The translations under genes and the position numbers were made by a program. The notes beneath the pieces were generated by a model, which was given only the letters and a program-made list of their open reading frames with translations, was not told the DNA's origin and ran no database searches. Shown here in pieces: positions 8,201 to 54,067 of a stretch of DNA of 60,332 nt. Origin of the DNA: Candidatus Thorarchaeota archaeon (GTDB lineage: Archaea > Asgardarchaeota > Thorarchaeia > Thorarchaeales > Thorarchaeaceae); contig RDOF01000017.1 of assembly GCA_011365025.1 (NCBI GenBank), positions 1 to 60,332 on the forward strand. Direction: 5' to 3'. How positions within the stretch are numbered: the first letter of the stretch is position 1; each line of letters starts with the position of its first letter.

Positions 8201-11200
8201 GTTTCTTATCCAGAAGGAGATTGGTATCCGGTTTCGGTTAGGAATCCATTGACCATTGAGAAATCATTCGGCACTGATTGGACTTGTTTCAACGGGAACC
8301 TAATGGTTGGAGCATCCACGGTTGATGAGTATGGAGTGTGGAAGATTCAATTCCAAGGTAGGAATCATGTTTTTGATGCACTCATGGGACCTCTTGGAGG
8401 ACCCTATTCTTCATCGGATGAGTTCTCCATTGGAGAAGATATCGAGTTCCGAATTTGGAGTTCGGGAACAATCGGCTCAGCGACATCTCTTGAGCTGACA
8501 GACCCATCAGGGTCGACTTGGTACTCCGGTATCACGACCCTTCAAGGGCAGAGCTTTGCATTGCCATACTATCATCGAAAACCCATCACCATTAGTTCCG
8601 AAGATGTTGGTGCAGATCTCACCAACTTCCCAGTACTCATTGACATCTATGATTCCGATTTGAAAACAGATGTTCGCGCAGATGGCAGAGACATCGCGTT
8701 TGCGATTGGTGAAGAAACGCTTTCACATGAGATAGAGCTCTTCGACCAGACCTACAACGAAACACACGCTCATCTTGTTGCATGGGCAAAGGTCCCCATG
8801 CTCTCCGGTTCAATTGACACCATTCTTAGCATGTATTACGGTAATCCATTAGCACCAATAGTTTATGACTCGGGACTGGTTTGGGATGCCGGCTATCTAG
8901 GAGTTTGGCATCTATCGGAAAGCGGGACTGGAGCACTAAATGAATATCTCGACAGCAGTCAGTATAAACATCATGGGCAAGGTGGTGAAGGAAACACTTC
9001 GTTTGTGCCAACAAGAGTGACTGGAAAGATTGGAAGCGGGCAGGATTTCAACAACCTTGATGGTTACTATGATCTTATTGATTGCGGCGACAGTCCAATG
9101 TGGAATATAGACGGTTACCAGATAACTTTGGAAGCTTGGATTCAACATGACATAACTCCTAACACTCACGTTTACGGAATAATGAATCACAAGGGATGGT
9201 ACAACGGATACAGCCTCTTCATAAATTATGGCGGAGGATCAACTCTAAAGCCCACCTTCAGCCTTCCGGGAGAAACGCATCAGCTGAGGGGAGCCAATGA
9301 TGTGACGGGAGAAGCCTGGCATCATATAGTGGCAACGTATGATGGATCGCTGATGAGGATATATGTCGATGGGGTTCAAGACCCCAATGTTCTTGTGAAG
9401 ACAGACACGATATTGCCCTCTACGTACGAGCAAGGATTCTGGATTGGGCATGGAGACCAACCTAAGGACAAAGGTTGGAGCGCAGAATGGGTGGGTCAGC
9501 TTGATGAAGTTCGTATCTCTGATGCAATTCGGTCAGCAGATTGGATTCAGACCGAGTATCAGAATCAAAATGACCCGAGTGACTTCTGTTCAGTTGGAGC
9601 AGAGGAAGATGCAGGATATTTCGAATCAGAATCTATTTCACTCGATTCCTCAGCTTCAGCAGGAGTTTGGCGGGCCACAGCCAGGAACAGTAACGCTGGG
9701 ACTGGTGTGAATGACCGAGTGGGCATTTTCAGCAGGAACTTCATTGTGAAACATGCTTCATTCTTGAGTCTTGTTGCACCAGGTGATGCCATATCTGATG
9801 GAGTCTCTGCTAGGCTCATTGGTGAAGGATTGTATGTTGAGTACGAGTTGGCTGACACATTGAACTCAAATCCCATCAGCGGAGCAACAATCACAATGAA
9901 CTGGACCGTAGGCGGAACACCAACCGAAGTCCAACTTGATGATTATGGAGAGGGAGTCTACGGAAAAGCACTGAATACCACAGATTTGGCCACAGCTCAA
10001 CGTTGGCGGATAGAATTCGCTTCTAGTCACCAGTTCTACAGCACAGCGACAAGTATTCTTCTTCTTGACCTCTCACATCAGACCTATCTTACTTACGAAC
10101 CGCCATCCCCTGTAGGGTATGGTGACGATTTTGCCGTTAGAGTAACACTCAGAGACTCCTTCGACAACTTGCCGGTTGCTAATGCAGAATTCACCAGCGA
10201 TGGTACTTTAGTAGGGGAACCTATTGACTACGGCAACGGAACCTACCTCCTAACCCTGGAAAGCTCAGGTCTTTCCATTGGAACGCATTCATTTGAATTA
10301 ACAGCCACTCCAACAGATTCGTTTCTATTGAGCACCTCCATAGATGTGCAGTTCACTTATCGTTCCGTTGTGACCGAGGCCTATCCGTATAGCGATGAAC
10401 CTGCCGAGATTCCTTGGGGCGAAGACGTCACCGTGTTGATACAATGGAACGATCTTGACCATGGCGGGATTGGCATTCAAGGAGGCACCATTAGCATCCT
10501 TCCGTCGGTTTCGATTCAGACAGTAGATAATGCGAATGGACATTATACACTAACAATTGTGATGGCATCTTATGCCCCAGGAACCTACTTCTTCAACGTG
10601 ACAATTTCAAAGACCAACTATGAGGACGCAACCTTCGCGCTCGCAGTTATTGTGGTAATTCACAAGACCTCAGCAAGTGCTGATCACAGTCCGAGTACCC
10701 CAGTGGGAACAAGCACATACTTCGACATTGCATTCCTAGACATTGATAGCGCCTCGAGTACAATAGGTTTGGCCAATCTCAGTCAGGTTATACTTGATTG
10801 GGGAACCGGTTCTCAAAGCTTCACCAACTATGGCTTTTGGCTTGACACAAGCGCTTGGGCCGTAGGAATCTATGAGATTAACATCACCGTTTATTCAGCA
10901 GCTGAACCTCAATACTACTCAGATGCAACAATTTCAATTGAGCTAGAAATACGGAAACTAGGCGTTTATGTAAGTTGGGAGAATCTGGAGCCCTTCCCAA
11001 ATGGCGATGACTTCATCCTCTTTATTCATTTGAACATTAGCGAACCTGGAACATCAGTTGATGGCAATCCGATTGATGGCTTAGATCAGACATACATCGT
11101 TGCAAGAAATTCGACAGGATGGGAGTACACACTCAAAAGCTTCACAGACCTATTTGATGGGCGATACAGAATTGTCATAGATCAGAGTCTGTTTCAAGAG

Positions 11201-45740: not shown

Positions 45741-46826
45741 TTGGAGGACCCTAGTACGAGGATTGGTTTAGTCGCTGGCCTAGAGGCAAGCATCCTAGAG
45801 GACGCAAAAGAAGTGGCTAACATTCTCTCTGAGAGGGGCATTCAGCTCGAGGTCGAGCAAAAAACAGGCGCTGCCCTTAGGAAACCCGGTCTCCCACTAA
45901 AGAAGATGCAGGTTGACTCGCTGATTGTGGTAGGCTCTGACAAGTTCTTGCTATCAACGCTTCTCAACTTGGGGGAAGTCCAGATTCCCATTCTGCCTGT
46001 TTCGTCCAAGGGTCAACCGGATTTTCTTTTCGATGTGACAGCGACCAATTTTGAAACAGCGGTCGATGATTTGCTTGAAAATAGATGGACGCAAGAGAAG
46101 AAATCCAGAATCTGCGCGGAAATCGATGGAAAGACTAGTCCGCCGTTGCTAAATGATGTTGGCATCTTCGCCCGTAGAAGTGCGACTCTGTTAAGATATT
46201 CGCTCTTCCTCGATGGTGAGCGCTTTTGGAAAGATGGGAGCGATGGTCTCATAGTTGCGACCCCCACCGGGAGCACCGCGTACTCGCTCAGTGTCGGAGG
46301 ACCCGTCATTCTCAGCCCTGCGTCTGTCATCTCCATAATTCCTGTGAATAGCGTGAATCCGGCAAGGAGACCTCTAATCGTTTCAGATGAAGTTACCATC
46401 GAGGTGAGAGACCTTGAGAGTTCTGTTTCAGTTGAACTCGTCTTTGATGGTCAAATCAGAAAGAAGACTGATGGCAGATCAGTAACAATTCGAAAGGCGG
46501 AAATTGACGCAACATTCGTGAAATTCTCGGAAGAAAGGCTCGAAGACCTTCGGGGAAAACTCAGTCAGAAGACGGAAGCCTTTGGCGATCTAGCACAAGA
46601 ACTGCCACCCAGCGCAAAACTAGTTCTGAAGGTATTAGAATATCAAGGACAGCTTACACAGAAAGAGATTATTGAGGAAACAATGCTCCCGGCCAGAACT
46701 GTTAGATATGCGCTGTCACTCCTCATATCAGAGGGACTCATAAAGAAACACATCTCCCTCAGAGATAGCAGACAAGGCATCTACAGCGTGACAAAGAAGA
46801 AGCCAATTCGAAAGCAGCCCAAATGA
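45741..46826 (+). CDS. NAD kinase-like protein lacking the canonical GGDGT motif, with C-terminal winged helix
   Basis: 361 residues. The C-terminal half of the kinase domain is well conserved: LLNDVGI (the NE/ND motif, about 137) and DGLIVATPTGSTAYSLSVGGP (about 168-188), the latter diagnostic of NAD kinases. The N-terminal nucleotide motif that is nearly always GGDGT reads GSDKF here (residues 65-69), keeping the aspartate but losing the second and fourth glycine/threonine positions. After the kinase domain a winged-helix segment (about 289-350, with the LTQKEIIEETMLPARTVRYA recognition region) is fused. It may phosphorylate NAD or act as an NAD(P)-sensing regulator. The start is TTG without an evident ribosome binding site. 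It overlaps the downstream beta-CASP gene by four bases. Confidence 0.75.
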   Translation: MEDPSTRIGLVAGLEASILEDAKEVANILSERGIQLEVEQKTGAALRKPGLPLKKMQVDSLIVVGSDKFLLSTLLNLGEVQIPILPVSSKGQPDFLFDVTATNFETAVDDLLENRWTQEKKSRICAEIDGKTSPPLLNDVGIFARRSATLLRYSLFLDGERFWKDGSDGLIVATPTGSTAYSLSVGGPVILSPASVISIIPVNSVNPARRPLIVSDEVTIEVRDLESSVSVELVFDGQIRKKTDGRSVTIRKAEIDATFVKFSEERLEDLRGKLSQKTEAFGDLAQELPPSAKLVLKVLEYQGQLTQKEIIEETMLPARTVRYALSLLISEGLIKKHISLRDSRQGIYSVTKKKPIRKQPK

Positions 46827-48993: not shown

Positions 48994-50931
48994 CTATGCA
49001 ACGACCTCGAGGACACCATCAAGCACAAGCTTTGTCGCAACAAAGCGCATTGCTGGTAAGCTGACGTTGAGCTTCCTAACGACATCCTCAAGCGGAGTAG
49101 TCCCATCGCAAAGATCGACAAACTTCACAACGACAGCCCCATATGTCTTCTGGGTCTCCGCATCGACCTCGCCGCGCTTCCGAAGATGGCTCTTGGCTTC
49201 TATCTCAACCTTGAAATCAACCCAGCCGTACTTTTCCATTATCTGAAGGCATCCAATGACTGTTTCCCGAGGAAGGTCAAGGCTTCTTACCAAGCCACCC
49301 ACTGTGTCGCTTCCATCTATGGCGCTTTTCACTTCAACAACGGCTTTTCCCACTTCCCTGCTGGCAAAGGGTAATGGCTTTCCGGCTTCACGTGATCGGA
49401 CAATGTAATCAAAAGAAACAGGCCTGAGAGGAATCTGATTCAGGACGGTGAATATTGACGTTTCAAAGATGCTGACGTTACCATCCCATCCCTCCCAAAT
49501 ATCGCTATACATGTCCTCAATGAGTGCAAGAAGCGATGCCATCATTCGTCGCTGTTCTTCTTCGTGCGTGTCATTATTCACGACCAATGCCAAGGTGAAA
49601 TTGTTTGACTTCTCGACTTGAACGAGATTGCCCTCGTGTTCGATGGTCTCAAGGGCATCAGTCTTGTCACCAACGCCATCCTGGTCACCATCAATTCCTC
49701 CGAAGGAGTCCAGAGCTGAAATCAGCGATGCCAAGGCAGTGGTGTCAATTTCCTCTCCCGCGTAGTTCAGATGGTATGATACCTCTGACATTCCCTTCTT
49801 GTGTGCAATAAGGAGCAGATGGAGAATCTTCGTGGTCTCCTGAATGGCCTCTGCGACAAGCTCCGTGGTTTGTGTAGTGTCAGACTCCGAATGAGTGGCG
49901 CTCTCAGTTTGTGCGGACTGTGTACCGCGATGCGAAGCGGTAACCTGAGTCGCCCCCTCTTCTTCATATGGGGAACGCACATACTGGCCGGCATCAGTGG
50001 CTCGGCTGTCTACTGCCACAGGCTCAATCTCTTCAGTTCCCTTTCGAACAGTAATCATTTCGCTAATTGGCCGATCTGGCAGGGTCACTCCGACAGTCTT
50101 GGCAGAAACCTCAAGCATAAGCCGAATGAATTCATCTCTGCGCGTTTTGTCGGTTCCAACCATGGCAAATGTTGGTGCCCCAAGGAGGCGCTGAATCTTC
50201 TCCGCTTTCATCGACTCAGGCAGGTCTTGCTTGTTTGCAATTATGAAGAGTGGAACTGCAGGAGCCTCTTTGCGAATGTTCCGAAGCAATGTCTTTGTCT
50301 GCATGACATTCCTAAAACTACTGTCGGTAATGAGAAAGATGACATCGGTTCCTTGGAAATAGAATTGCCAGAGGTCTTGGAATACAGCCTGCCCCGCGAA
50401 GTCCCATACGGTCACTAAGAAAGTCCCAAACTGTATTGTTTCGGAACTATCAACCGCAACATTGATGGTCGGAACATATCCGCCAGGTGCAGGTTCCCTA
50501 CCGAATAAGAGCCTAAGTAGCGTGCTTTTGCCAACACCACCTGACCCCACAAATGAAACCTTGAATCTGGTGAAAATCAGTTCGCCAAGGATGTCCTCCA
50601 GATTATCTCGAATATATCCAAGGCTGTTGCCACGAAGTGCCGTGGAGATGCGTGCAGCGCCTTCTCGAACCTTGTGCTTTATTGTACGCTCTTCATCACG
50701 TCCATCTGTTACGAACAGGAGAACAAGCTCATCATCCACTGTTCCATGAAAGATCTTATGTGGACCAACAAAGACTGGAGTGTCCTCAGCAAGGCCCTCC
50801 GTATTACGCAGGTCCCGCCAACCAGTGAGAAATTCTTGAATATCGCTCTCAAGAAAATCAATTTTCCAGAAGCGAGTTTTAGTAACAATGCCTCCATCGA
50901 CTTTGTCAATCAAGAGAACATTGTGTATCAA
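48994..50931 (-). CDS. Longin / Arf-like GTPase / longin / winged-helix fusion protein
   Basis: 645 residues. Residues 1-115 have the longin/roadblock-like look of Asgard regulators (MIHNVLLIDKVDGGI). Residues 122-290 are an intact Arf/Ras-like GTPase: P-loop GSGGVGKST (129-137), WDFAGQ (176-181) and NKQD (233-236). A Ser/Thr/Gln-rich linker follows. Residues about 372-495 form a second longin-like domain (ASLISALDSFGG, VQVEKSNNFTLALVV, IEDMYSDIWEGWDGN) with a DxDxDG-type insertion at 413-424. Residues 500-645 contain two winged-helix-like units, each opening with a DG(S/T) turn. The architecture suggests a membrane- or polarity-linked regulator. It lies 77 bases downstream of a paralogue that has lost the GTP site. 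Confidence 0.8.
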   Translation of the reverse strand: MIHNVLLIDKVDGGIVTKTRFWKIDFLESDIQEFLTGWRDLRNTEGLAEDTPVFVGPHKIFHGTVDDELVLLFVTDGRDEERTIKHKVREGAARISTALRGNSLGYIRDNLEDILGELIFTRFKVSFVGSGGVGKSTLLRLLFGREPAPGGYVPTINVAVDSSETIQFGTFLVTVWDFAGQAVFQDLWQFYFQGTDVIFLITDSSFRNVMQTKTLLRNIRKEAPAVPLFIIANKQDLPESMKAEKIQRLLGAPTFAMVGTDKTRRDEFIRLMLEVSAKTVGVTLPDRPISEMITVRKGTEEIEPVAVDSRATDAGQYVRSPYEEEGATQVTASHRGTQSAQTESATHSESDTTQTTELVAEAIQETTKILHLLLIAHKKGMSEVSYHLNYAGEEIDTTALASLISALDSFGGIDGDQDGVGDKTDALETIEHEGNLVQVEKSNNFTLALVVNNDTHEEEQRRMMASLLALIEDMYSDIWEGWDGNVSIFETSIFTVLNQIPLRPVSFDYIVRSREAGKPLPFASREVGKAVVEVKSAIDGSDTVGGLVRSLDLPRETVIGCLQIMEKYGWVDFKVEIEAKSHLRKRGEVDAETQKTYGAVVVKFVDLCDGTTPLEDVVRKLNVSLPAMRFVATKLVLDGVLEVVA

Positions 50932-51007
50932 TCAATTTCACACTCCGGGTAATTTGCGATTTATTCTTGGCTTACACCTGTTCAGGTATTGTTTCCTGCT
51001 AAGAAGC

Positions 51008-52708
51008 TTATGTTGATGTATCTCGCAGACGAATAATACCTCGACGATATAGTTCTGCAAAGACCGTAATTAGGACTTCTGTCTGTACCCCCAAATGCTC
51101 AGATATCACCTCAATACTTGCAGCTCCATCGATTTCTTCAGCAATTGACTCGATATGCGAATAGAGCGCACGGGTATTCTCGTCAATACTTCCGGTCAAG
51201 ATAGGAATATCCACTTTGCTAATTCGGATTCGCCACTCAATGAATCCCATTCTATGAAGAAGATGAAGTGCCCCAATGACCATTTCCGGACCGCTTCCGG
51301 TGGCAATGCCTGCAATTGTCTTCTTGCCATCAAGACTCTGCCAAACGGCACTGAGAAAATCACGCACTGAATCCGATTCAAATTTGCTCCAATCAGGCTC
51401 AGTCATTCGAAGAGGAATAATACGAGGAGGTAGGTCTTCGGGAGGCAAGGTCGCTAGCAGTTTCAATGTGAATGGTGGGGAGGAGTATAGATTCCCACTG
51501 CTCTCAACATTCTCTGGAGATTCGTCGAGATACAAATCGGGCAGGAATGAGAACCGTGCCCGTGTAATCTCAACATCTTCTCGTTCACCAGTAACAAGCG
51601 TGAATACCAGATTGCTTCTTTCGATTATGACGTACTTCAGACCACCGGCACTAAACACAGACGTAGAAGTTGGGCTCTTAAAATCAAGCTGAAATTGAGA
51701 TACTGCTGCTACAACGTTGGGTGTCATTTCTATAAAGACGGGATCCTCTTCATAGAGATAGGTGAATCTTGCGTCACCGGTTTCCCTACTTATCACGAAG
51801 AATGCCTGATGGCCCTTGTCAATCTGAACTTCATCTTTTGTGGTCCTGCTCGACGATATCTCTTCCAGCAGCCATGTTTCCTTCGCGATTTCGGGAAGAG
51901 TGAAGGTGAACCCAGATATTGCGAGAACTGACAATATCAAATCAATCGGATCTGTTGACACGGAGTCACACAACGTCAGAAAGTAGGAGTTCTCCAAGTC
52001 CCTAGCCAATTCGAGTTCGTCATCGGAAGCAGGCACGACAAGGATTTCTGCATTAGAATTGGCACGAATATGCCTAAGTGTGTCTCCGAGTGCCATTGGG
52101 TCATCCAACACACCAGATACAACAATGACGAATGTATCTACCGAACGCAACCATTCTGGCCAATCGTTATGAGGAATCGCATCAAAACTACTAGAAGCAC
52201 AATATACTTCAAAGGGACCAAGCATGAGTGCTGATGTGAATACCGATTCTTCATCAACACGCGACTGCAGAAGCTTTGACACTGCTATTCCGGTGCGGTT
52301 CTCGGGCGTTGGATTCCTATCGGAGAAGAAGCATATGTGAACAGGAGTAGCTAGATACTTGGTGGAGATTCTTTGAAACTCAATCCGAGCAGTTCGGAGG
52401 GAGTCATCTTCAATAAGAGCTGCAATCTCCTGTGCATAGGAGTCAAACCTTGATTCTTCGCCTAGAGCAAGATCGTGTGAGTCAGCCAGAAGCACGAGAA
52501 AGGTGGTTTCTGCAACCCTTCGCACGAAGGCAGGTGTTCCCTCCAATTCCAGCTGCAGAAATTCGTCTGCCAATCCGCTTTGAACTTTATCTAGTAGATG
52601 CTCTGATATCCGACTGATGATCTCCTCATTTGGCCCTTTGCGTAGAAATGAGGCAGATGCGAGAACGCTTGGCCCATGTAAGTCATATAGCATCGATGAG
52701 AGAATCAC
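51008..52708 (-). CDS. Longin / pseudo-GTPase / longin / winged-helix protein
   Basis: 566 residues with the same domain order as the next gene. It has an N-terminal longin-like domain (1-105, MILSSMLYDLHGPSVLAS), then a Ras-like core (about 120-270) with the expected strands (TPVHICFFSD, DTFVIVVSGV, AEILVVPASDD). This core has no P-loop lysine, no DxxG and no NKxD; the P-loop position reads SDRNPTPENRTG. A second longin-like domain follows at 300-400 (GLKYVIIERSNLVFTLVTGE), and winged-helix units at 440-566 (SLDGKKTIAGIAT, EEIDGAASIEVIS). It is probably a catalytically inactive partner of the neighbouring GTPase, by inference from adjacency and shared plan. It starts 60 bases after the cytosine methyltransferase. 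Confidence 0.65.
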   Translation of the reverse strand: MILSSMLYDLHGPSVLASASFLRKGPNEEIISRISEHLLDKVQSGLADEFLQLELEGTPAFVRRVAETTFLVLLADSHDLALGEESRFDSYAQEIAALIEDDSLRTARIEFQRISTKYLATPVHICFFSDRNPTPENRTGIAVSKLLQSRVDEESVFTSALMLGPFEVYCASSSFDAIPHNDWPEWLRSVDTFVIVVSGVLDDPMALGDTLRHIRANSNAEILVVPASDDELELARDLENSYFLTLCDSVSTDPIDLILSVLAISGFTFTLPEIAKETWLLEEISSSRTTKDEVQIDKGHQAFFVISRETGDARFTYLYEEDPVFIEMTPNVVAAVSQFQLDFKSPTSTSVFSAGGLKYVIIERSNLVFTLVTGEREDVEITRARFSFLPDLYLDESPENVESSGNLYSSPPFTLKLLATLPPEDLPPRIIPLRMTEPDWSKFESDSVRDFLSAVWQSLDGKKTIAGIATGSGPEMVIGALHLLHRMGFIEWRIRISKVDIPILTGSIDENTRALYSHIESIAEEIDGAASIEVISEHLGVQTEVLITVFAELYRRGIIRLRDTST

Positions 52709-52768: not shown

Positions 52769-54016
52769 TCAGTCTTGCTCTGCTCTACTGGAAATGAATT
52801 CGGACCATGAAAGCGTACCTCGCATAAGCCGCTGGTAGTCCGAATTGAGATGAACTTTGGCGTATTCTTGTGCCTTGCCTCCACCCCCTGCCTCAATCTC
52901 CGGAAGGTCACTGATTGCCTCGTCGACTGCTACCGGAAAGGCAGGCAAGAACGACTTCTGGTCGTCTGTACGGATGACAACTCCCCTCACAACGGCTGGA
53001 AAAATAGGGGGAGGTAGGGGCGGGAGATCACTGGTTCTGGAACCGGTTATGAACACTCGTCGACGTCGTTGCGGAACACCGAATTGCTCAGCTCTTAGTT
53101 TGAAAACACTGCATCTGAATTCGAGAGACTCGAGCCGAGCAAGAATGTCATTCAAAGTCTTCCCCTTGTTATGAAAGAGTAATCCAGGGACATTCTCAAT
53201 CAAAAGGTACTCAGGCGACAAAGACTCAACTATTTCGAGAAACGGGATATACAGGATGTTCCGGATATCCGACAGATTTCCCTTACCAGCGGTTGAGAAC
53301 CCTTGACAGGGAGGACCGCCGGCTATCAAATTCAGAGTTCTACCATGAAGCTCATTCTCGACTTCTTCAATCAAAGCAGATAAGTCACCGCGCTTTGACA
53401 AGTCGCATTTAACAACAGGAGTTTCAGGATGATTACGGCCATACGTTTGAAGCATATTGTCATTAAGATCCGCGCCCGCGATTACTCTGTGACCTCCAAG
53501 GCTTAGCCCTTGGGATAACCCACCAGCTCCTGCAAAAAGGTCAATCGCGAGTCCTTGAGGAATTGTTGCTCCAAGTGCCAGTGCAAGAAGCGGAGGAACC
53601 GCATTCCCAATCTGTTTGTACATTGAGCTCGTGCTTCCAAGAAACCTGAAGCTGTCAGGGAATGACTGAAGCCGAGCTGCCTCTCTTATCGAAATCAGAC
53701 GGTCTTGCTCTGGATGTATAAATGTTCCATTTCCGGGTCTATTGAAATAGGTGCTAATTGTATAGCTTGGCATATCGTTTCGTAGTCTGCCGTAGTAGGT
53801 GGTTCGGCCGCCAGATTTTCGAATTTGCATTACTCGCGCAGACTTCTTTGCGATGTGCAGGGGAATGTCCTTCCAGTTGCCGCCAGGAGGAACAGACCGA
53901 ATCATCTCTTGGTCAAGGGCACTCAAAGAAGTGCATACATGATTATAGAGAAGTGGTTCTTCAGACGTGACTTCGTCATGCGTACTTGTAACCAAAGTCA
54001 AGATGTATTGCACCAT
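52769..54016 (-). CDS. Circularly permuted DNA (cytosine-5) methyltransferase
   Basis: 415 residues with all the main C5-methyltransferase motifs, but in rotated order. Motif IX (DMPSYTIST and REAARLQSFPD, residues 81-121) and motif X (QIGNAVPPL, 135-143) come first. They are followed by motif I (DLFAGAGGLSQG, 159-170), motif IV with the catalytic cysteine (GGPPCQGFS, Cys237), motif VI (LIENVPG, 272-278) and motif VIII (QRRRR, 316-320). The C-terminal 90 residues are the start of the target-recognition region and residues 1-75 its end, so the polypeptide is opened inside that region. The enzyme would methylate cytosine at C5 in a specific DNA site. It lies 51 bases after the adenine methyltransferase; no nuclease gene is near. 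Confidence 0.88.
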   Translation of the reverse strand: MVQYILTLVTSTHDEVTSEEPLLYNHVCTSLSALDQEMIRSVPPGGNWKDIPLHIAKKSARVMQIRKSGGRTTYYGRLRNDMPSYTISTYFNRPGNGTFIHPEQDRLISIREAARLQSFPDSFRFLGSTSSMYKQIGNAVPPLLALALGATIPQGLAIDLFAGAGGLSQGLSLGGHRVIAGADLNDNMLQTYGRNHPETPVVKCDLSKRGDLSALIEEVENELHGRTLNLIAGGPPCQGFSTAGKGNLSDIRNILYIPFLEIVESLSPEYLLIENVPGLLFHNKGKTLNDILARLESLEFRCSVFKLRAEQFGVPQRRRRVFITGSRTSDLPPLPPPIFPAVVRGVVIRTDDQKSFLPAFPVAVDEAISDLPEIEAGGGGKAQEYAKVHLNSDYQRLMRGTLSWSEFISSRAEQD

Positions 54017-54067
54017 TCCAAGCCGCCCAGACTCAGAAGCTTAGACCATATATCGGATTCAATCCAA

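Follow-up and report, generated by a model that had tools for sequence, protein, structure and literature searches.

A circularly permuted cytosine-5 DNA methyltransferase and its adenine methyltransferase partner in one class of Thorarchaeota: a probable solitary modification pair for GTCTC

Alw26I reads GTCTC, and the described systems closest to the locus reported here are those of Alw26I, Eco31I and Esp3I. Among C5-cytosine DNA methyltransferases, REBASE records 27 natural permuted cases, each with its permutation in the variable region, and the Alw26I/Eco31I/Esp3I family supplies most of the natural permutants that are named (PMC5944983; type H). Eco31I-type enzymes mark GGT(m5C)TC / GAG(m6A)CC (PMC4659465; these methylation sites were consulted after our first GTCTC count), the two enzymes being separate in Eco31I and BsaI and fused in Esp3I and BsmBI (PMC3874165). 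As for the Asgard archaea, the survey table of PMC10609329 holds one genome, which has no m5C gene. None of the open PMC matches listed was a study of an Asgard permuted pair such as the one described below, which does not prove that the pair is unpublished.

The window, that is the whole stretch of 60,332 nucleotides analysed here, carries genes for such a pair of predicted enzymes. An earlier note on this DNA had recognised the permuted C5 gene and had considered permutation rare and an archaeal case unusual. This needs qualification, as the form is known in the Alw26I/Eco31I/Esp3I family and the archaeal enzyme is common within one Thorarchaeota class rather than exceptional. The topology is thus already known; what appears to be new is a nuclease-free pair kept class-wide in archaea. 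That earlier reading of the C5 gene was also incomplete, in that the partner adenine methyltransferase was overlooked.

The permuted enzyme and its adenine-specific partner

The C5 open reading frame starts with ATG and runs through 415 codons with no internal stop (Table 1). Sequence inspection and an alignment of 22 homologues place a motif IX region (REAARLQSFPD, residues 111-121) and motif X (QIGNAVPP, 135-142) ahead of motif I (DLFAGAGG, 159-166) and motif IV (GGPPCQ with Cys237), with ENV (274-276) and QRRRR (316-320) in the slots of motifs VI and VIII; the motif numbers are labels that we assume. PF00145 of Pfam matches the frame in two stretches (E 6.3e-59). Mouse DNMT1 aligns to pieces of the query in the order 151-401, 20-52 and 74-152, the middle piece being weak alone (9.8 bits), and only two DNMT1 residues separate query residue 401 from query residue 20. 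This rotated order indicates that the two chain ends meet within one recognition region. Moreover, when the chain is rotated it aligns with the linear enzyme of locus L013 as a single domain (rotated residues 7-397, 236 bits) against a best domain of 148 bits in native order, and the permuted relative in L005 gives one domain of 297 bits in native order and breaks, with a best domain of 142 bits, in the rotated one. Linear enzymes align across the joint of the rotated chain.

In a homologue search with the C5 frame, 7996 of 7998 scored candidates passed E 1e-3. The best 120 listed, which include the window's own protein, are 378-443 aa long and collinear with the query, covering 91-100% of it in one local alignment. 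Cys237, Glu274-Val276, Gln316, Arg318 and Arg320 are invariant in 67 aligned sequences (62 of these 120 homologues plus five loci). The AlphaFold2 model reached a pLDDT of 89.1 and a pTM of 0.89, and structure searches, which depend on chain order, matched C5 enzymes mainly over residues 153-402. By these comparisons the frame is confirmed as encoding a predicted C5 methyltransferase that is intact and circularly permuted (IX-X before I-VIII) and broken inside its target-recognition region. The earlier note had claimed the rotation, the position of the break and the uninterrupted chain with intact catalytic motifs and had predicted the alignment of the rotated sequence with ordinary C5 enzymes, and these points held. 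Formation of 5-methylcytosine by this enzyme is predicted; the GTCTC deficit and GTTTC excess described below bear on it indirectly.

Table 1. Positions of the features discussed, in the window unless a locus is named
Feature	Position	Strand	Evidence or remark
Predicted circularly permuted C5-cytosine DNA methyltransferase, 415 aa	52769..54016	minus	Profile, homologue alignments, AlphaFold2 model
N-terminal part (residues 1-150): predicted second recognition-region part, motifs IX and X	53567..54016	minus	
C-terminal part (residues 151-415 and stop): motifs I-VIII (Cys237), then predicted first recognition-region part	52769..53566	minus	
Gap of 51 bases between both methyltransferase genes	54017..54067	minus	Genes on the same strand
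Predicted Alw26I/Eco31I/Esp3I-type adenine-N6 methyltransferase, 720 aa	54068..56230	minus	TIGR02987, PF07669, PDLC03237
566-aa protein, weak C-terminal HTH match	51008..52708	minus	Directly downstream of C5; context only
645-aa Roc/Arf-like GTPase	48994..50931	minus	Same syntenic block; context only
Tandem linear C5 frames	L011 9785-12241; L012 2734-5181; also L023, L024, L028		

Directly upstream on the same strand, the C5 gene adjoins a second methyltransferase gene, with which it presumably forms an operon. Its 720-aa frame has a mechanical TTG start, and the true start may lie later. The frame contains DPACGTG as motif I and NPPY as motif IV (NPPY in 32 of 33 relatives, NPPF in the remaining one) and matches PF07669 of Pfam as well as TIGR02987, the latter with E 4.4e-85 and 286 bits, under the curated cut-off of 353.5; the adenine copy of L003, which stands with a nuclease, is likewise under this cut-off (263 bits). 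A single PADLOC profile, PDLC03237, covers both methyltransferases. On these matches the upstream gene is a predicted adenine methyltransferase of the Alw26I type.

Distribution, nuclease family and relatives

We surveyed the class of Thorarchaeota SMTZ1-45 (record of L004; 47 genomes) within a phylum set of 227 genomes. The permuted C5 enzyme was found in 33 of the 47, with 30 full-length copies and 3 pieces at contig ends. At E <= 1e-60, matches occurred in 32 of the 227 phylum genomes, all within this class, and in none of the 180 genomes from other classes. Strong matches to the adenine enzyme (E < 1e-80) were present in 34 of the 47, two of which (G015 and G040) have no C5 gene. In the fetched regions the gene order was that of the window: adenine methyltransferase, C5 methyltransferase, 566-aa protein, GTPase and a converging beta-CASP gene. 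In all 29 fetched orphan loci whose contig reaches far enough, C5 is directly followed by the 566-aa gene, and in 27 of the 28 testable ones the adenine gene comes before C5, the exception being G017, where C5 is present and the adenine gene does not stand beside it. In G015 the adenine gene directly adjoins the 566-aa gene with C5 missing between them, and in G044 and G045 the downstream block is present without either methyltransferase. Many genomes are assembled in short contigs, where gene absence is less than certain. The C5 gene is conserved in the SMTZ1-45 class and vertically kept, nearly always at one chromosomal place.

The surrounding genes were noted in their own right. The genes at 48994-52708, the converging beta-CASP gene and an NAD-kinase-like gene (by eye, 45741-46826) make up a class-conserved block, and the 566-aa protein occurs in 37 of the 227 phylum genomes, all in the SMTZ1-45 class. 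At the other side of the window, 2276-29754 is occupied by two adjacent giant frames of 5176 and 3983 aa with a 4-base overlap; by eye they look related to each other and repetitive, resemble surface proteins and carry a membrane segment at the C-terminus.

The nuclease of the family, TIGR02986, had no match among the scanned neighbouring proteins of the window. It was found in two of the 47 class genomes, G003 and G027, which are also the only two of the 227 in the phylum, with 401 and 278 bits, both under the curated cut-off of 443.85. Each of these nucleases adjoins its own separate copy of the C5 and adenine genes, and G027 also carries the orphan pair. The bacterial loci L005 and L007 show the same order of C5 and adenine genes plus a convergent TIGR02986 nuclease; the nuclease family is present in three of the five non-Thorarchaeota pair genomes (G005, G006, G007) and in one of the four Thorarchaeota genomes searched alongside (G003). 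With respect to the Alw26I nuclease family, the Thorarchaeota pair appears to be solitary; for the window itself this covers the 60,332-nucleotide stretch.

For relatives elsewhere, 80 loci were kept of 578. Outside Thorarchaeota the pair was seen among them in a cyanobacterium, an Enterobacter, a Burkholderiales and a Flavobacteriales genome, and as a fused pair in a Lachnospiraceae genome; L006 is a 1008-aa fusion of the adenine and C5 enzymes. As linear rows the trees used a selection of 45 high-scoring single enzymes from these 80 loci. In the tree of rotated sequences, 17 permuted enzymes fell on one side of a branch with modest support (84/62), the Thorarchaeota permuted enzymes grouped together (99/97), and the nuclease-bearing copies L003 and L143 (100/99) sat beside the orphan clade (100/98). 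Separately, a special closeness of the C5 enzyme to eukaryotic DNMT1 was considered and rejected: among solved structures DNMT1 ranks first by sequence (153 bits), yet linear bacterial enzymes score above it (L013, 241 bits), so that the DNMT1 ranking reflects what has been crystallised.

The earlier note had suggested that the rotation arose by tandem duplication followed by truncation. Two linear C5 enzymes joined head to tail in one frame of 735-818 aa do exist, in five loci (Table 1), and this is the architecture which such a model requires. Trees of the separate halves ask for 3 changes of the permuted group in the C half and 2 in the N half, and they are too weakly supported for a conclusion on the origin of the permutation; L014 was left out of the full tree and put into the half trees, from which the long-branch linear enzymes L015 and L076 were left out. 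L014 itself (9995-11059, Comamonas), with a permuted C5 enzyme of 354 aa, stands on a very long branch; no Alw26I-type adenine gene was found in its locus, and it possibly represents an independent permutation lineage.

Pentamer composition of genomes with and without the C5 gene

We named GTCTC, which we take to be the core site of the family, before counting. The sample comprised 26 C5-bearing members (25 genomes and the window; about 8 to 160 kb per genome, methyltransferase loci included, 1.28 Mb in all). The C5-bearing genomes G001, G002, G017, G019, G036, G042, G050 and G012 were left out because their contigs were short or had not been fetched, and G049 stands outside the sample. One of the 25, G003, holds only the nuclease-bearing copy, leaving 25 of the 26 with the nuclease-free form. 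Against a third-order background, where observed and expected counts were halved (both strands, divided by two) and the z values are conservative, GTCTC showed the strongest depletion of the 512 strand-collapsed pentamers (0.596, z -14.5), and the strongest enrichment was that of GTTTC (1.199, z +8.2). Both ranks hold in every leave-one-out, and in the window alone GTCTC ranks first in depletion. The corresponding values for GTCTC and GTTTC were 0.922 (rank 38) and 1.003 in eight class genomes without C5, 0.96 and 0.97 in 20 genomes of other classes, and 0.87 and 0.97 in 68 loci of other organisms. Compared genome by genome, the GTCTC difference had the lowest p of the 512 (one-sided p = 0.001, 25 against 7 genomes with enough sites), although p values in this sample overstate independence because the genomes are related to each other. 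The GC-adjusted ratio was 0.66 (z -6.2, n = 34). In the contrast of genomes with and without C5 under first- and second-order backgrounds, for which full site numbers were used, GTCTC falls most of all 512 pentamers (log ratios -0.50 and -0.55), with runners-up at -0.27 and -0.30, respectively. The GTCTC deficit is independent of the background model.

The GTTTC excess is less firm than the deficit. Under the third order, a neighbour that differs at either end base has a tetramer in common with GTCTC and rises automatically; among the nine inner one-base neighbours GTTTC stands far highest (z +6.7), the next being GTCAC (+2.7). Under the second order no other of the 15 one-base neighbours rises as much (+0.20, z 6.4, Mann-Whitney p 0.0008), and GTTTC is 4th of 512, and under the first order it rises by 0.17 (p 0.006) and is 33rd of 512, with 4 of the 14 other neighbours raised equally or more. 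Of 1280 pairs compared by raw C/T odds, GTCTC/GTTTC comes out lowest (-0.65), with GAGAC/GAGAT close to it (-0.62). As the C-to-T signal varies with the background model, deamination of m5C at GTCTC is the better reading of this excess, though an unproved one.

The sites are not depleted in all contexts. In the C5 genomes the ratio is 0.48 for AGTCTC, 0.41 for CGTCTC and 0.33 for TGTCTC, and GGTCTC is spared at 1.11. Plain GTCTC specificity leaves this sparing unexplained; either the site may be HGTCTC, or selection may hold GGTCTC.

Genomes of the class that lack the C5 gene serve for comparison. In G015 the GTCTC ratio is 0.94, against 0.48 in its sister G016, and in G044 and G045 it is 0.95 and 0.95. 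In a tree of the neighbour gene, G015 and G044/G045 lie in two separate places, without C5 and without the scar, while their near relatives have both; each may be a loss or an original absence of the gene. Five further genomes without a detected C5 gene (G040, G038, G035, G010 and G020) are still depleted, with GTCTC at 0.45 pooled, 0.46 in G040 and 0.35-0.53 in the other four. These five were removed from the absent group only after their values were seen, and if they are counted as absent the effect weakens to a ratio of 0.79 (z -2.7). In G035, G010 and G020 the neighbour gene lies at a contig end, so that the assembly may have missed the pair; G038 is a 1.7-Mb genome. G040, being nearly a single contig, is a real exception: no permuted C5 gene was found in it, and its adenine enzyme lies in another neighbourhood (L141, G040:C1:655001-675000). 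It may reflect a recent loss, another enzyme or a flaw in the reading. Within the absent group, G041 (8/16) and G046 (1/3) are also low, on very few sites. G030, in contrast, carries the pair and is undepleted (0.96 on 8 kb).

Two other depletions were observed along the way. Among pentamers, CCAGG/CCTGG comes second in depletion with C5 (0.62) and first without it (0.68); a linear C5 enzyme of about 320-360 aa, which, as a guess, might be CCWGG-specific, is also present in many class genomes. GATC is strongly depleted as well, at 0.57 in genomes with the pair and 0.51 in the ten classed at that stage as lacking it.

A proposed solitary modification pair and its alternatives

We propose, with a probability of roughly 0.7, that the pair is the modification half of a type IIS system of the Alw26I/Eco31I/Esp3I type whose nuclease was lost, now a fixed chromosomal pair that would produce GT(m5C)TC / GAG(m6A)C. 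The ancestor would have been a type IIS restriction-modification system from which the endonuclease disappeared while the modification genes were kept. The site being asymmetric, two enzymes are needed: on the top strand the C5 enzyme would produce GT(m5C)TC, and on the bottom strand the adenine enzyme would produce GAG(m6A)C. Motif X and motif I are neighbours in the ordinary C5 fold; in the permuted chain the motif X helix would pass straight into motif I, with the new ends placed in the recognition region, and the chemistry is expected to be the ordinary attack by Cys237 of PCQ with SAM. On this reading the pair has been active over evolutionary time, and deamination would have depleted GTCTC and raised GTTTC. 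We counted the nuclease-bearing sister copies beside the orphan clade in favour of nuclease loss; the base changed from GTCTC to GTTTC is the one methylated by Eco31I-type enzymes, and this we counted in favour of activity. The wider statement, that an Asgard class keeps a solitary m5C + m6A mark at asymmetric HGTCTC through a domesticated type IIS pair, with a deamination scar that is absent where the C5 gene is absent, we hold somewhat more probable than its opposite.

What the pair would be kept for is a separate matter. A housekeeping mark is its most likely role; perhaps it is kept as a shield against incoming Alw26I-type systems. In the stronger form of the latter idea the pair would be an antidote, its pre-methylation blocking killing or addiction by such systems, which concerns the role alone and is compatible with the enzymology proposed above. 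The two enzymes do stay together in nearly all testable orphan loci, in G027 the orphan pair coexists with a nuclease-bearing copy, and related nuclease-bearing copies exist in the same class. Nevertheless, the nuclease occurs in just two class genomes, and G015 and G040 keep the adenine enzyme without C5, hinting that the m6A mark has a role of its own; we regard the antidote as possible but the less likely role.

As a rival, the GTCTC deficit could reflect avoidance of cutting by Alw26I-type nucleases, whether past or invading, or a general bias, instead of methylation by this pair. G003 and G027 do hold the nuclease family, and depletion is strong in G003 (0.34); G040, where no C5 gene was found, is depleted too, the loci of other organisms are mildly low, and the first-order background does not single out the C-to-T signature. 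Avoidance, however, should spread across all one-base neighbours, whereas GTTTC tops them under the second and third order. Moreover, all but one of the sampled C5 genomes hold the nuclease-free form, and the class genomes without C5 and those of other classes remain near 0.92-0.96. We consider avoidance improbable as the source of the deficit.

Still less probable is a working restriction-modification system with a strongly diverged nuclease, for instance the 566-aa downstream protein or a gene elsewhere. That protein is encoded by a conserved gene at a fixed position after C5 in all 29 loci, and similarity-based identification of type II nuclease genes is difficult (PMC10609329). Yet in G044 and G045 the protein is found in this block with neither methyltransferase beside it, profile searches gave it no match to a nuclease family, the family nuclease is recognisable beside the sister copies within the class, and the GTTTC excess, to the extent that the background model allows, favours deamination over avoidance of cutting. 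An assembly error or a frameshift joining two partial genes, against which the earlier note had warned, is hardly credible: nothing was found in its favour, and the same collinear layout is shared by the 120 homologues listed, by the full-length copies in 30 SMTZ1-45-class genomes and by bacteria.

With the solitary pair as the preferred reading, an oddity of protein topology becomes a case in which DNA methylation of Asgard archaea can be put to the test. With an orphan made of two enzymes one can ask what keeps both strands marked when there is no nuclease, and natural controls are at hand in G015 and G044/G045. In addition, permuted Asgard sequences need rotation before they are aligned with eukaryotic DNMTs. 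PF00145 matches, Asgard ones included, were aligned with MAFFT in PMC12344493, and no mention of permutation was found in its main text.

Compared with known systems, M2.Eco31I/M2.EcoMI, M.Alw26I and M2.BsaI have the same permutation with a break in the variable region (PMC5944983) and an adenine partner, as here. The Eco31I, Alw26I and BsaI systems possess a nuclease, whereas the family nuclease went undetected in 45 of the 47 class genomes, and the Eco31I site is GGTCTC, the very context that the site proposed for Thorarchaeota spares. M.Esp3I and BsmBI combine both kinds of enzyme in the order found here (PMC3874165). In these they are fused in one chain, unlike the two separate genes of the window. 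M.BssHII, the example named in the earlier note, is multispecific. By description it is a permuted C5 enzyme too (PMC5944983). Finally, the persistent orphan methyltransferases of archaea are taxon-wide and without a cognate nuclease, as is the Thorarchaeota pair; the orphan groups described in the available part of that survey (PMC10609329) are not asymmetric m5C + m6A pairs, whereas the pair presented here would be one.
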